Shown here: positions 32,558-62,622 of the stretch, piece by piece | Position numbering within the stretch: the stretch's first letter is position 1 | How the letters are laid out: the number at the start of each line of letters is the position of its first letter | Assembly: GCA_017399405.1 (NCBI GenBank) | Contig: JAFQCT010000013.1 | Coordinates: 1 to 62,622 of the forward strand | Length of the DNA stretch: 62,622 bases | DNA from: Clostridia bacterium | GTDB lineage: Bacteria; Bacillota; Clostridia; Oscillospirales; Acutalibacteraceae | Direction of reading: 5' to 3' | Notes under the pieces: model-generated | Database searches by the model: none | The model's input: the letters and a program-made list of their open reading frames with translations, nothing else | What the model was told of the DNA's origin: nothing | Translations under genes and position numbers: made by a program

Positions 32558-33067
32558 ATGTTATGTCAAAATTGTGGTAAATACGAAGCAACAACTCATG
32601 TTAAAAGAATAGTAAACGGTGAAACTGCTGAGGCACACCTTTGCACCGATTGTGCAAGAGCGTTAGGCTATACTGATGTTTTTGGTGGATTCGGTAACAC
32701 TTTTGGTGATTTATTAGGCTCGTTTTTCGGCGAATCACAGGTGAGCAGTTTAAGTTCAAGAACACTTCGCTGTGAAAAGTGCGGTAATACTTTTAATGAT
32801 ATAGTAAACAGCGGAAAACTTGGTTGTGCTGACTGCTATACAACTTTCTACGATAAACTTTTGCCGTCATTACAGCGTATTCATGGCAAAACTCGCCACG
32901 AGGGCAAAAATCCAACAATCATTAAAACGGATGTTGTTGAAAGTGTAAATGTTCTTGAAGATTTAGAAAAGCAATTGAAATCTGCAATAGAAGAACAAAA
33001 CTTTGAAAAAGCAGCAGAACTTCGCGACAAAATCAATGAAATGAAAGCAGGTGGCAATAATGAGTAA
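32558..33067 (+). CDS. mcsA: McsA, activator of the protein-arginine kinase
   Basis: 169 residues. Two four-cysteine zinc sites are visible (CQNC with CTDC, then CEKCGN with CADCY), followed by a UVR-type coiled helical hairpin (LEDLEKQLKSAIEEQNFEKA). McsA binds and activates McsB and links it to CtsR and ClpC. Its stop overlaps the mcsB start by 8 nt, which implies coupled translation. Confidence 0.96.
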   Translation: MLCQNCGKYEATTHVKRIVNGETAEAHLCTDCARALGYTDVFGGFGNTFGDLLGSFFGESQVSSLSSRTLRCEKCGNTFNDIVNSGKLGCADCYTTFYDKLLPSLQRIHGKTRHEGKNPTIIKTDVVESVNVLEDLEKQLKSAIEEQNFEKAAELRDKINEMKAGGNNE

Positions 33068-34070
33068 TAAATGGTATATCGGCGTAGGTGAGCAAAGTGA
33101 TATTGTTGTAAGCACCCGTATCCGCCTTGCAAGAAATATTAAAGAATATCCGTTTCCTAACAAATTAAATACTAAAAACCGTATTATTATCAATAATATT
33201 ATTAAGGACGCAATTGAAAAAGACAACAAATATAATCTTAACTTTGTTGAAATGAAAACGCTTGCCCGATTTGAAGCCGCTTCTATGGCAGAGCGTCATA
33301 TTATAAGCCCTGAATTTGCGTCAGATGCAGATGGCAGAGCCTTGCTCATTACCCCTGAAGAAGATATCTGCATTATGCTTAATGAAGAAGACCACATTCG
33401 TTTGCAGGTTATGAAGTCAGGATTTGCACTTGATGAAGCGTACCAAGTAGCCGATGAAATTGACACATCAATCAGCGAAAAACTTGAATATGCCTTTGAC
33501 GAGCGTATAGGCTTTTTGACTCAATGTCCTACAAATTTGGGCACAGGTATGCGAGCATCTGTAATGCTTCATCTTCCCGCCCTTACAATGAATGGCCAAA
33601 TCCATAAACTGATTAACACAATTTCAAAACTTGGTTTAACTTTTAGAGGTGCATTCGGCGAGGGTAGCAAGGCAGTAGGCGATATGTACCAACTTTCTAA
33701 CCAGATTACCCTTGGTATTTCTGAAGAATTTGCAATTAAAAACTTAAAGTCCATCACATTACAACTTTGTGCACAAGAAAGAGCAGCACGGGAAGAAATC
33801 TTAAAGTCAATCAATACTGACGACGCAATCTTCCGTGCTTACGGTACTCTTAAATGGGCACGACTTCTCTCAACAAAAGAACTTATGGAAAATCTTTCAC
33901 TTGTCCGTCTTGGCTCGGTTGCAGGTAAAATAAATGTACCTATTGAAAGAATAAATGAACTTATGATTTCAATGCAACCGGCAAGTATCAATGCCCGTGC
34001 AGAACAAAAACTCCCTGAACAAGAAAGAGATACGGTAAGAGCGAGTGAAGTAAGAGCAAAATTAGGTTGA
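33060..34070 (+). CDS. mcsB: McsB protein-arginine kinase
   Basis: 336 residues from the ATG at 33060. Phosphagen-kinase-like catalytic domain: STRIRLARNIKEYPFPNKL at the N-terminus, FLTQCPTNLGTGMRASVMLH around the catalytic Cys loop, and RGAFGEGSKAVGD. It phosphorylates arginines on CtsR and on damaged proteins, marking them for ClpCP. It is the third gene of the operon. A terminator-like hairpin and a repeat array separate it from clpC. Confidence 0.97.
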   Translation: MSNKWYIGVGEQSDIVVSTRIRLARNIKEYPFPNKLNTKNRIIINNIIKDAIEKDNKYNLNFVEMKTLARFEAASMAERHIISPEFASDADGRALLITPEEDICIMLNEEDHIRLQVMKSGFALDEAYQVADEIDTSISEKLEYAFDERIGFLTQCPTNLGTGMRASVMLHLPALTMNGQIHKLINTISKLGLTFRGAFGEGSKAVGDMYQLSNQITLGISEEFAIKNLKSITLQLCAQERAAREEILKSINTDDAIFRAYGTLKWARLLSTKELMENLSLVRLGSVAGKINVPIERINELMISMQPASINARAEQKLPEQERDTVRASEVRAKLG

Positions 34071-34071
34071 A

Positions 34072-34101
34072 TGTAGGGCGAGACTTGTTCTCGCCTGTTT
34101 T
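34072..34101 (+). terminator. TGTAGGG-headed hairpin with T tail after mcsB
   Basis: GGCGAGA (34077-34083) pairs TCTCGCC (34089-34095), then GTTTTTT. It has intrinsic-terminator form and lies directly after mcsB, so it could reduce transcription into clpC. Its TGTAGGGCGAG head is shared with the element at 62441. Confidence 0.6.
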
Positions 34102-34105
34102 TTAC

Positions 34106-34292
34106 CCAATCGTAGATTGGATTTCATCTTTTATTTATTAAAAGATTTCATCGAATTTGTTCGATTTCATCATCCGTAGGATGATTTCATTTATAAACAC
34201 AGTTATTGAATGAAATCTGTCTTCGACAGATGAAATCACTTTGTGATGAAATCCTCGTTTTACTTGGATGAAATCTGCTACGCAGATGATTT
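34106..34292. repeat. Array of eight mini-hairpins with 7-nt ATTTCAT/ATGAAAT spacers
   Basis: Eight short inverted repeats, each with a different stem, are separated by a fixed 7-nt word. Four are followed by ATTTCAT (34121-34127, 34145-34151, 34164-34170, 34184-34190). After an 18-20 nt centre, four are preceded by its complement ATGAAAT (34210-34216, 34230-34236, 34246-34252, 34268-34274). Stems include CCAATC/GATTGG, CATCC/GGATG, CTGTC/GACAG and CTGC/GCAG with 3-nt loops. One stem (34253-34267) is degenerate. It fills the mcsB-clpC gap. Confidence 0.85.
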
Positions 34293-34309
34293 ATTAAGGA
34301 GTGAAAACT

Positions 34310-36730
34310 ATGTACAACTTCACAGGATTTAGTGAAAAAGCAAATATGTGTCTTAACAAAGCAGTTGAGGTGGCAGAGGATTCAGGTCACACATATATAG
34401 GCAGTGAGCATATTTTGTTAGGGCTTTTAGACAGTACTGACTCTGTTGCAGGCAAAATTCTTGCAAACAGGGGGGTAACATACAAAAAAGTTTACGATTT
34501 AATTCGCGAAACGGTGGGCACGGGAATGCCAACTGAACTTACCCCGGCCGATTTTACTCCACGAAGCAAACATATTATTGAAAGTGCCCTGATGCTTGCA
34601 AATACAATGAAACAATCCCTTGCGGGTACTGAACACTTGCTTATTTCGATTTGTCGTGAGGGTAACGGTTACGCGTGTCAACTTTTGACCCGTGCAGGCA
34701 CAACCACAACTGCACTCTTAAAAGATTTGGCAAACAATGTAAGTAATCCTAAATCCGCCAACAAACCATCAAAAGACAATAAATCAAACTCACAACTCCA
34801 AAAATATGCCCGTGATTTAACTGCTCTTGCAAAAGAGAATAAAATCGACCCGGTAGTTGGCCGCGAAAAAGAAATACAAAGGGTTATTCAGATTTTATCC
34901 CGTAGAAGCAAGAACAATCCTTGTTTAATCGGTGAACCGGGTGTAGGTAAAACTGCAATTGCCGAGGGGTTAGCACTTCGTATTGCCAACGGTCAAGTGC
35001 CTGAACTTCTTAAAGATAAGCGAATTTTATCGCTTGACTTAACGGGAATGGTGGCAGGCACAAAATATCGTGGTGATTTTGAGGAACGCATTAAAGGTGT
35101 AGTTGACGAGGTTATTAACTCAACTGATATAATCCTTTTTATTGACGAGGTGCATACTCTTATTGGTGCAGGTAGTGCAGAGGGTGCAGTTGATGTGGCG
35201 AATATCTTAAAACCATCACTCGCCCGTGGGGAGTTGCAACTTATCGGTGCTACTACTATTGACGAATACCGTAAAAATATTGAAAAAGATGCTGCTCTTG
35301 AACGCAGATTTCAGCCCGTAACTGTTGACGAGCCAAGCGTTGAAGATGCAATTCAAATTCTTAAGGGTATTCGCGATAAATACGAGGCACACCATAAAGT
35401 GAAGATTACTGATGATGCAATAGTAAGTGCTGTTAATCTTTCTGCACGGTATATCGGCGACAGATTTTTGCCCGATAAAGCTATTGACTTAATTGACGAG
35501 GCATCTTCAAAAGTTCGTCTTGATTCTGCTGTGCCACCACCTGAAATCAAAGAAATGGAAAAAAGGTTAGAGCAGATTTCAGCAGAAAAAGAAATGGCAG
35601 TAAATCAGCAAAATTTTGAGCGTGCTGCAACACTTCGCGATGAAGAAAAAGAACTTACTCAAAAATACAATACAGAAAAAGCAAAGTGGCAGTCAGAGGA
35701 CTCCGCTCGCGAAAAACAAGTGACAGAAGCTGAGATTGCACAGATTGTATCTGAATGGACAGGTGTGCCAACCACACAAATGACCGAAGAAGAAAGTGAA
35801 CGCTTGCTTCGTATGGAAGATGAACTTCATAAACGAATTGTAGGACAAGAAAAAGCAGTAAAAGCAGTAGCAAAAGCAATCCGTAGGGGTCGTGCAGGGC
35901 TTAAAGACCCTAAAAGACCAATTGGCACATTCCTTTTTTGTGGTCCTACGGGTGTGGGTAAAACTGAACTTACAAAGGCTTTAGCTTCTACTATGTTCGG
36001 TGACGATAACGCTATGATAAGACTTGATATGAGTGAGTTTATGGAAAAGCACACCGTGTCAAAACTTATTGGCTCGCCACCCGGTTATGTTGGGTTTGAT
36101 GAAGGTGGTCAATTAACAGAAAAAGTCCGCAGAAAGCCATATTCTGTAATCCTTTTTGATGAAATTGAAAAAGCACACCCTGATGTTTTTAATGCACTTC
36201 TGCAAATTCTTGATGACGGTATTTTAACTGACTCTCAAGGCAGACGAGTAGATTTTAAGAACTGTGTAATTATAATGACATCAAATGTAGGTGCAAGACT
36301 TATCAATGAAGAAAAGGCAACATTCGGTTTTGTGGCAAATGAGAATGACCGCACTGACGAGAAAATCAAAGAAGCGGTTATGGGCGAACTTAAACACACA
36401 TTCCGCCCTGAATTTCTTAACCGTATTGACGATATAATCGTTTTTAACAGACTTACCGAAGAAGATATTAAAAACATAGCGAAAAATCTTTTAGGAGCAT
36501 TAGAAAAGCGTTTAAGCCATATTGAAATCACAGTTAAATTTGACGAAAGTGTAGTTGATTTCGTCTCAAAAGCAGGTTACGACAAAATCTATGGTGCAAG
36601 ACCGTTAAAGCGTACAATCCAAAGCAAAATTGAAGATACCTTGTCTGAAAAAATTCTTGAAAAATCCATAGAAAAGGGCAAGTCTTATACTTGCAGTTGT
36701 GATGAAAACGGAAACCTTGTTATAGAATAA
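34310..36730 (+). CDS. clpC: ClpC AAA+ unfoldase (Clp protease ATPase)
   Basis: 806 residues from the ATG at 34310, with AAGGAG 8 nt before it. A double Clp N-domain (1-145) is followed by D1 with [10 protein letters not shown] and [13 protein letters not shown], a middle domain (about 410-470, with a UVR-like [14 protein letters not shown]) and D2 with [10 protein letters not shown] and [16 protein letters not shown]-terminal sensor-2 region closes the chain. It unfolds McsB-marked proteins for ClpP. No CtsR box lies directly upstream, so control depends on read-through from the ctsR promoter or an unseen promoter. Confidence 0.97.
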
Positions 36731-62478: not shown

Positions 62479-62622
62479 AAATTGAGTTTGTCGGGATGTT
62501 TGAAAGACATCCTCTTTCCTCCCTCTGACGAGGGAGGTGGCAAAATCGAAGATTTTGACGGAGGGAGAGATAAAGTACTTAACGGCTCGTATCTCTCCCT
62601 CAGTCTCGCTAACGCTCGACAG
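62479..62622. repeat. Composite repeat reaching the window end
   Basis: AATTGAGTTTGTCGGG (62480) is followed by a CTCCCTCTGACGAGGGAGG hairpin, an AAAATCGAAGATTTTGACGG palindrome and CTCCCTCAGTCTCGC ending the window. I recognise the last parts as a repeat seen in many Clostridia genomes. It is cut at 62622. Nothing coding is seen here. Confidence 0.7.

Follow-up and report, generated by a model that had tools for sequence, protein, structure and literature searches.

An inverted array of mini-hairpins at an mcsB-clpC junction in a Clostridia bacterium: a putative gene-less copy of a mobile DNA element

Between two reading frames of a Clostridia bacterium, putatively named mcsB and clpC in an earlier note made from the sequence alone, lies an array of eight mini-hairpins whose stems differ from unit to unit and whose seven-nucleotide spacer is inverted halfway. 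The window, by which we mean the whole stretch of 62,622 nucleotides that was analysed, thus poses the question of what such an array is: an RNA structure, the passive body of a transposable element, or a mobile DNA of some other kind. The repetition, mobility and structural constraint of these arrays are well supported. We put at about 0.6 the probability that the window array is a gene-less, non-autonomous copy of a mobile element that has inverted mini-hairpin half-arrays as its ends.

The array and its relatives

From 34106 to 34291, eight mini-hairpins alternate with spacers (Table 1), the first four of which read ATTTCAT and the last four ATGAAAT; the array lies behind a terminator-like hairpin that follows putative mcsB and ends just ahead of the putative clpC frame (34301). 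The inversion halfway, noticed in the sequence-only reading, is real and is that of two half-arrays turned against each other, as they are around a PF05635 gene in another genome (G325, below). The same reading had the spacers invariant and the stems different yet complementary. Because substitutions were read by eye in 4 of the 24 spacers of the three other copies in this genome, spacer invariance holds only within the window copy; the stems are perfect in seven of the eight units, the exception being unit 34253-34267, where the other copies have CCTCG..ACTCGG, an opposite-strand stem with a tandem G.A mismatch. The segment 34075-34305, which takes in the terminator-like hairpin ahead of the array, folds better than 200 of 200 dinucleotide shuffles in each of three tests (z of -5.6 and -6.6 for RNA on the two strands, and of -6.7 for DNA on the + strand).

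Table 1. Features of the mini-hairpin array and its surroundings, in window coordinates.
Feature	Position	Strand	Remarks
Putative mcsB reading frame	33051..34070	+	flanking; name from the earlier note
Intrinsic-terminator-like hairpin and T-tract	34076..34103	+	hairpin 34076-34096; directly before the element, outside the repeat
Whole element	34106..34291	.	two inverted half-arrays; extent common to the window copy and three other copies
Left half-array	34106..34190	+	four hairpins, each followed by spacer ATTTCAT
ATTTCAT spacers	starts 34121, 34145, 34164, 34184		
Hairpin CCAATC-GTA-GATTGG	34106-34120		left half-array
Hairpin TCTTTTA-TTTAT-TAAAAGA	34127-34145		left half-array
Hairpin CGAA-TTTG-TTCG	34152-34163		left half-array
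Hairpin CATCC-GTA-GGATG	34171-34183		left half-array
Centre of element	34191..34209	.	would correspond by layout to the position of the PF05635-type gene in G325 (L508:1163-1504)
Right half-array	34210..34285	-	spacer ATGAAAT ahead of each of four hairpins
ATGAAAT spacers	starts 34210, 34230, 34246, 34268		
Hairpin CTGTC-TTC-GACAG	34217-34229		right half-array
Hairpin CAC-TTT-GTG	34237-34245		right half-array
Imperfect unit CCTCGTTTTACTTGG	34253-34267		right half-array
Hairpin CTGC-TAC-GCAG	34275-34285		right half-array
Rfam Gut-1 (RF01706) match	34208..34279	+	42.7 bits; gathering score 50
Rfam Gut-1 (RF01706) match	34140..34205	-	33 bits; under gathering score
Putative clpC reading frame	34301..36730	+	flanking; name from the earlier note

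Neither a single array nor four near-identical copies can show covariation, which was judged on related arrays. In family loci found by the spacer alone, stems of at least 3 bp are present in 82% of 77 distinct units, compared with 5% after shuffling. The corresponding values are 42% of 271 distinct units in genome_contigs (5% shuffled; all matches listed) and 6% of 198 in viral_contigs (3% shuffled), and are low because many matches there are chance or tandem repeats. A second family set has 73% of 45 units paired (6% shuffled) and, having been found by similarity to the window array, is not independent of the stems. The 49 distinct 13-nt units drawn from the half-arrays retained in the polarity analysis form 97.1% standard pairs (52% shuffled, at most 43% slid), with a covariation score of 1.078 (0.200 shuffled, at most 0.117 slid) and all four Watson-Crick pair types at four outer stem positions. 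These figures confirm that the kept pairing reflects structural constraint, as had been proposed; other genomes do have related arrays, and these show covarying stems, the two points on which the sequence-only reading had said it would stand or fall.

A pattern search of related genomes, suggested in that reading, was made with the spacer alone and matched 65 of 398 family genomes, from 37 of 135 genera. These counts take in the window's own genome, and at least G056 looks like a chance match; the reversed spacer pattern, used as a control, matched six family genomes by hand count. The same pattern found at least 119 stretches in genome_contigs, 43 of which were kept as having paired units; their titles name Clostridia, Clostridiales, Oscillospiraceae, Ruminococcaceae, Ruminiclostridium, Eubacterium, Christensenella or Bacillota, and many come from animal guts. 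Many of the remaining genome_contigs matches listed are chance or tandem repeats. Matches in viral_contigs were mostly unpaired or tandem repeats, with L341 alone looking real. An exact 28-mer of the window array had no match in genome_contigs, the window array none in the plasmid collection, and a tRNA-linked array none in the phage or plasmid collections.

A search for repeated 6-mers with at least two distinct paired units returned 133 ATTTCAT-class arrays and 31 others in 2.04 Mb, against one array in Markov-shuffled sequence; since most of these loci were chosen for their ATTTCAT arrays, the 133 do not represent a genome-wide rate. The 7-nt spacer is nearly constant inside an array and different between classes, the words of the other classes including ATATCAC, ATGTAAT, ATATCGC, ACCTAT, GCTTCAT and ACTTCAT. 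In the window's genus, ACTTCAT-class arrays were found in 4 genomes out of 40, a scan for which the reversed-pattern control is uninformative because the reversed word is present in these arrays too. An array beside the tRNA-Leu(caa) of G423 was seen by eye only and was not listed by the generic array finder.

Strand polarity and the case for an RNA

Polarity was analysed in 150 of 213 half-arrays, those with at least one paired unit, including one own-genome copy (L221); this filter favours pairing and not one strand, and its unfiltered counterpart is the set of unit-pairing counts given above. The 281 distinct units include 113 with a triloop, of which 62 are GNA and none TNC, AAA being next with 14, and the closing pair is C-G in 105 units and G-C in none. 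On the ATTTCAT strand 33 units have a tandem G.A mismatch, although one of these, L111, is an unrelated tandem repeat; none was found on the other strand. Tetraloops are GNNA in 39 of 74 cases (22 GNRA, 17 GNYA), and isolated internal G.T outnumbers A.C on the polar strand by 17 to 4, or by 23 to 12 when the innermost pair is counted. Among 24 arrays of other spacer classes, which are the 31 minus seven discarded by eye as plain repeats, 18 have a single loop polarity, five are uninformative and one is mixed; where there are at least two informative hairpins, loop polarity agrees in 9 of 10 arrays. As the loop and mismatch features are confined to one strand, that strand appears to be the one that folds.

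Mini-hairpins of the C-GNA-G type have unusual stability as DNA, the GCGAAGC hairpin being the subject of published papers, and the energies calculated for DNA were expected to be better on the GNA strand. This expectation was contradicted: under DNA folding parameters the GNA strand is more stable in 51 and less stable in 133 of 187 perfect stems. Since these parameters show no C-GNA-G stability here, there is still room for an RNA form, and tandem G.A earns a bonus of -1.6 kcal/mol in RNA parameters compared with -0.1 in DNA.

The array may then be a structured RNA, either the Gut-1 sRNA (RF01706) or an element of the mcsB-clpC transcript, with RNA hairpins that bind a protein. The greater tandem G.A bonus in RNA parameters and the excess of internal G.T over A.C on the polar strand both speak for it, as does the likeness to Gut-1, which qualifies the earlier remark that no described family was recognised. 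Both halves of the window array align over model positions 1-77, with three hairpins and UGAAAU between them, although under the family cut-off; the best score in the whole genome is 43.3 bits, below the 50-bit cut-off. Weak matches occurred in 4 of 14 control genomes, none above the cut-off, which was reached in 15 of 20 related loci, and Gut-1 is for this reason best seen as half of such arrays. The paper of Weinberg et al. 2010 (PMC2864571) places Gut-1 among the motifs likeliest to be expressed as non-coding RNA, and in the human gut only. Gut-1 is accordingly described as a candidate non-coding RNA from the human gut, whereas the window array is part of a repeated DNA element of which the model covers only one half. 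Moreover, the two halves, on opposite strands, are both Gut-1-like, GNA is the commonest triloop, and GNYA tetraloops stand beside GNRA. The tRNA-linked arrays lie after a terminator hairpin and ahead of promoter-like sequence (by eye), a poor place for an RNA, and no similar array was found at mcsB-clpC in the other genus genomes searched, that of G314 being of another class. We therefore regard an RNA as unlikely.

Copies, empty sites, tRNA ends and PF05635 genes

The sequence-only reading had treated the array as particular to one junction. It is instead a dispersed repeat of 186 bp, with four copies in the genome: that of the window and those at C10:172487, C10:293323 and C6:18463. The other three match the window copy at 92-95% identity up to the same two borders; they have flanks in common with each other, which are unlike those of the window copy. 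One stem of the C6 copy lacks an outer pair (alignment read by eye). Two of the three lie inside elements of 223-224 bp with inverted ends of the GAGTTTGTCG type, and the third adjoins one such end. These ends, which also bound elements with different bodies elsewhere in the genome, are absent at the window copy, so that the 186 bp are found in two unrelated contexts.

Elements of this family, dispersed in the genome and about 170-256 bp long, combine inverted ends of the GAGTTTGTCG type with bodies that can be exchanged, and several contigs break within such sequence (window 62484-62493 to its end, and the starts or ends of C2, C7, C13 and C17). A further sequence, GAGTTTGTCGAACTC, was considered as the element's own end and rejected, as it ends several other small elements of the genome.

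That the array interrupts the mcsB-clpC junction, as first proposed, is borne out when the gap is aligned with that of the closest congener found (G312), in which the aligned mcsB and clpC blocks stand 84 bp apart against 245 bp in the window, with 87-90% identity over the two genes. At the locus of the C10:172487 copy G312 has 52 bp against 292 bp, and since identity there is only 69-73% the exact junction is not fixed. No target-site duplication is evident at the window copy, where G312 is too diverged to fix the junction. A 1.1-kb query containing the array, run against 31 genus genomes, recovered it from its own genome alone. Another congener, G314, has an array of the ACTTCAT class between mcsB and clpC (L082; G314:C38:2600-3100), and with an array there in a second species of the genus the site may be a hot spot.

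Several copies, no gene and relatives' sites without the element are features of a MITE. The array could on this account be the passive cargo of an ordinary inverted-repeat element, moved by an unrelated transposase: the GAGTTTGTCG...CGACAAACTC-type elements that contain two copies and adjoin the third have the same ends around other bodies in this genome, and could have moved those copies. Yet the window copy has kept the inner 186 bp without GAGTTTGTCG-type ends, the arrays of other genera stand in other surroundings (tRNA ends, PF05635 genes), and being a body explains neither the free stems, the fixed spacers nor the strand-polar loops. Such passive carriage is quite unlikely.

The surroundings of related arrays were compared with 1404 random positions taken from the same loci. 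The array set comprised 56 of 58 family loci, leaving out L221 (own genome) and L232 (chance), and 44 genome_contigs or viral_contigs loci with at least two paired units, leaving out L092, L111, L255 and L268, judged by eye to be tandem repeats; of 110 arrays 82 were evaluable in this comparison (28 being too near an end), and 78 were evaluated after seven repeated arrays had been removed. A tRNA or tmRNA 3' end faces 38 of these 78 distinct arrays within 250 bp, compared with 21 of the random positions, and a terminator-like hairpin lies within 150 bp of 57, compared with 284. A PF05635-type gene starts within 130 bp of 16 arrays, 14 of which have a tRNA or tmRNA too. None of the 78 related ATTTCAT-class arrays has the window's order of half-arrays (> then <); 55 have the opposite order and 23 run in one direction.

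The tRNA-linked units shown begin at or just after the CCA with a terminator hairpin, a few of them behind a second tRNA or an insert. Thirteen chosen pairs of PF05635-linked units have identities of 64-93%; their matches start between CCA-28 and CCA+88 where the tRNA is in view, reach, where the gene is complete, to a point from 97 bp short of the stop codon to 3 bp beyond it, and are followed in six pairs by a second short match further on. L237 (tRNA-Leu) and L075 (copied tRNA-Ser tail), from different genera, share 92% identity across the 570 bp that run from the CCA into the PF05635 gene; for L056 (tRNA-Arg) and L064 (tmRNA) the figure is 91% across 328 bp, and L064 and L068, also from different genera, have identical array cores. 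The locus of a tRNA-Leu(caa) by tRNA-Glu and tRNA-Met differs between genomes: an ATTTCAT array is present there in G251, G383 lacks one, and in G175 there is a different small insert. A copied tRNA tail of 15-20 nt stands ahead of arrays in L055, L075, L076, L125 and L216; it was not used to define the element, since most tRNA-linked arrays follow the tRNA itself. Small post-tRNA inserts of about 130-900 bp, whose final 14-45 nt repeat the tRNA 3' tail, were observed in L055, L066, L075, L076, L125, L216 and L441, the repeated tail being present twice in tandem in L066.

An array-linked protein matches PF05635 at 3.9e-25 and the solved structure 2rld at 3.6e-24. At L508 in G325, four hairpins with the spacer ACTTCAT (one spacer ACTTCAC) are followed by a gene, 61% identical to the array-linked PF05635 protein, and by four hairpins with ATGAAGT, and the element lies between two other reading frames. 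The window array has the order and number of hairpins of L508 minus the gene; as the G325 element has another spacer, this link is one of layout in one example and not of sequence homology. In L129 and L131 two arrays enclose a PF05635 gene together with a second reading frame, and in L406 a PF05635 gene lies between ACCTAT-class arrays of opposite order. Among the 30 best-scoring PF05635 loci, contrary to expectation, none has an ATTTCAT array and three have arrays with other spacers (L394, L406, L415), and the window's own genome (G000) gave no PF05635 match at E 0.001. Counted by eye and uncorrected for relatedness, PF05635 is present in 59 of 65 array-bearing family genomes and in 134 of 333 others.

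Two further observations concern the cassettes. The second frames behind the PF05635 gene differ between L237, L131, L129, L103, L151 and L065, five of the six being without a Pfam match and one matching inorganic pyrophosphatase. A conserved segment of 60-70 bp (TACTTTTGCTTACTTTTACC...GTTTGGTTACT) ends some cassettes, after which come the next terminator and array (L058:1378, L131 (rc) 5287, L237 (rc) 2099); its first part occurs at L065:879 with no array behind it.

A candidate class of mobile element

The arrays resemble several known systems in part. REP/BIME sequences are likewise small intergenic hairpins in alternating orientation, and if the window array belonged with such palindromic repeats, mobilised by a Y1 (RAYT) transposase, single-strand recognition would account for the polarity. 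REP stems keep their sequence, however, whereas the present arrays keep the spacer and vary freely in the stem, and the partner gene observed beside them is of PF05635, which makes a REP-like origin very unlikely. Neutral palindrome correction by template switching, which would yield paired stem changes and leave stems complementary without function, is strongly disfavoured and hardly credible, as near-invariant spacers and GNA loops on one strand (62 to 0) would be unexpected and tandem G.A mismatches would be erased. These alternatives overlap with the preferred explanation and with each other, and their probabilities need not sum to one.

Integron attC sites are folded single-strand sites, associated with small cassettes in strings, and offer an analogy, with the difference that many mini-hairpins are present per junction here. 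The 23S rRNA intervening sequences that encode S23 are DNA insertions carrying a gene for a PF05635 four-helix-bundle protein, whereas the elements described here are intergenic or at tRNA and tmRNA 3' ends and have mini-hairpin arrays. PF05635 resembles Avd of the diversity-generating retroelements, according to PMC10053308. In one of these, BPP-1, homing needs a DNA hairpin or cruciform of which the stem is free and the loop GRNA is fixed on one strand (PMC3240598); our related arrays, as a class and not in every unit, similarly have hairpins kept in structure only, with strand-specific G-N-(N)-A loops. The BPP-1 target differs in being a single hairpin with a stem of 7-10 bp and in working with a reverse transcriptase and a template repeat. 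No description of the arrays was found in the open-licence papers searched.

We return to the reading that the window array is a gene-less copy of a mobile element. Its fuller forms would have a small PF05635 gene for a four-helix-bundle protein (23S rRNA-IVP, Avd-like), in some cases accompanied by another gene, either enclosed by the half-arrays or next to them. By analogy with the BPP-1 homing hairpin, the hairpins may be DNA shape signals and the spacers sequence signals; and since the spacer is near-constant in an array and different between classes, it would be the word read by a class-specific factor. The restriction of loop and mismatch features to one strand suggests that what is recognised is probably a single strand, and most likely DNA that folds in the bubble opened by replication or transcription. 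We infer that the hairpins may act in transposition or insertion, that the PF05635 protein may bind them, and that the working form would be single-stranded DNA and not RNA.

More tentatively, at somewhat less than even odds, the arrays may represent a new class of mobile DNA, composed of cassettes with inverted mini-hairpin arrays and a PF05635/Avd-like protein and possessing no classical transposase of its own. Each class would then have its own address in the spacer, and shape alone would identify the hairpins; the cassettes would insert behind terminators, chiefly where a tRNA or tmRNA gene ends in its 3' CCA, and would carry small cargo genes. The window array would be half-array joined to half-array without a gene, and Gut-1 would be half of such a junction and not an RNA gene.

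To our knowledge, no mechanism of movement is known for PF05635 elements. If the new class is real, their movement becomes directly testable, and a function is suggested for PF05635, a widespread family of unclear role that is related to Avd and to the proteins of 23S rRNA intervening sequences. Gut-1, now listed as a candidate RNA, would become part of a mobile DNA element, and the arrays would provide a natural case of selection on nucleic-acid shape, in which the stem sequence is free and a separate sequence word serves as the address.
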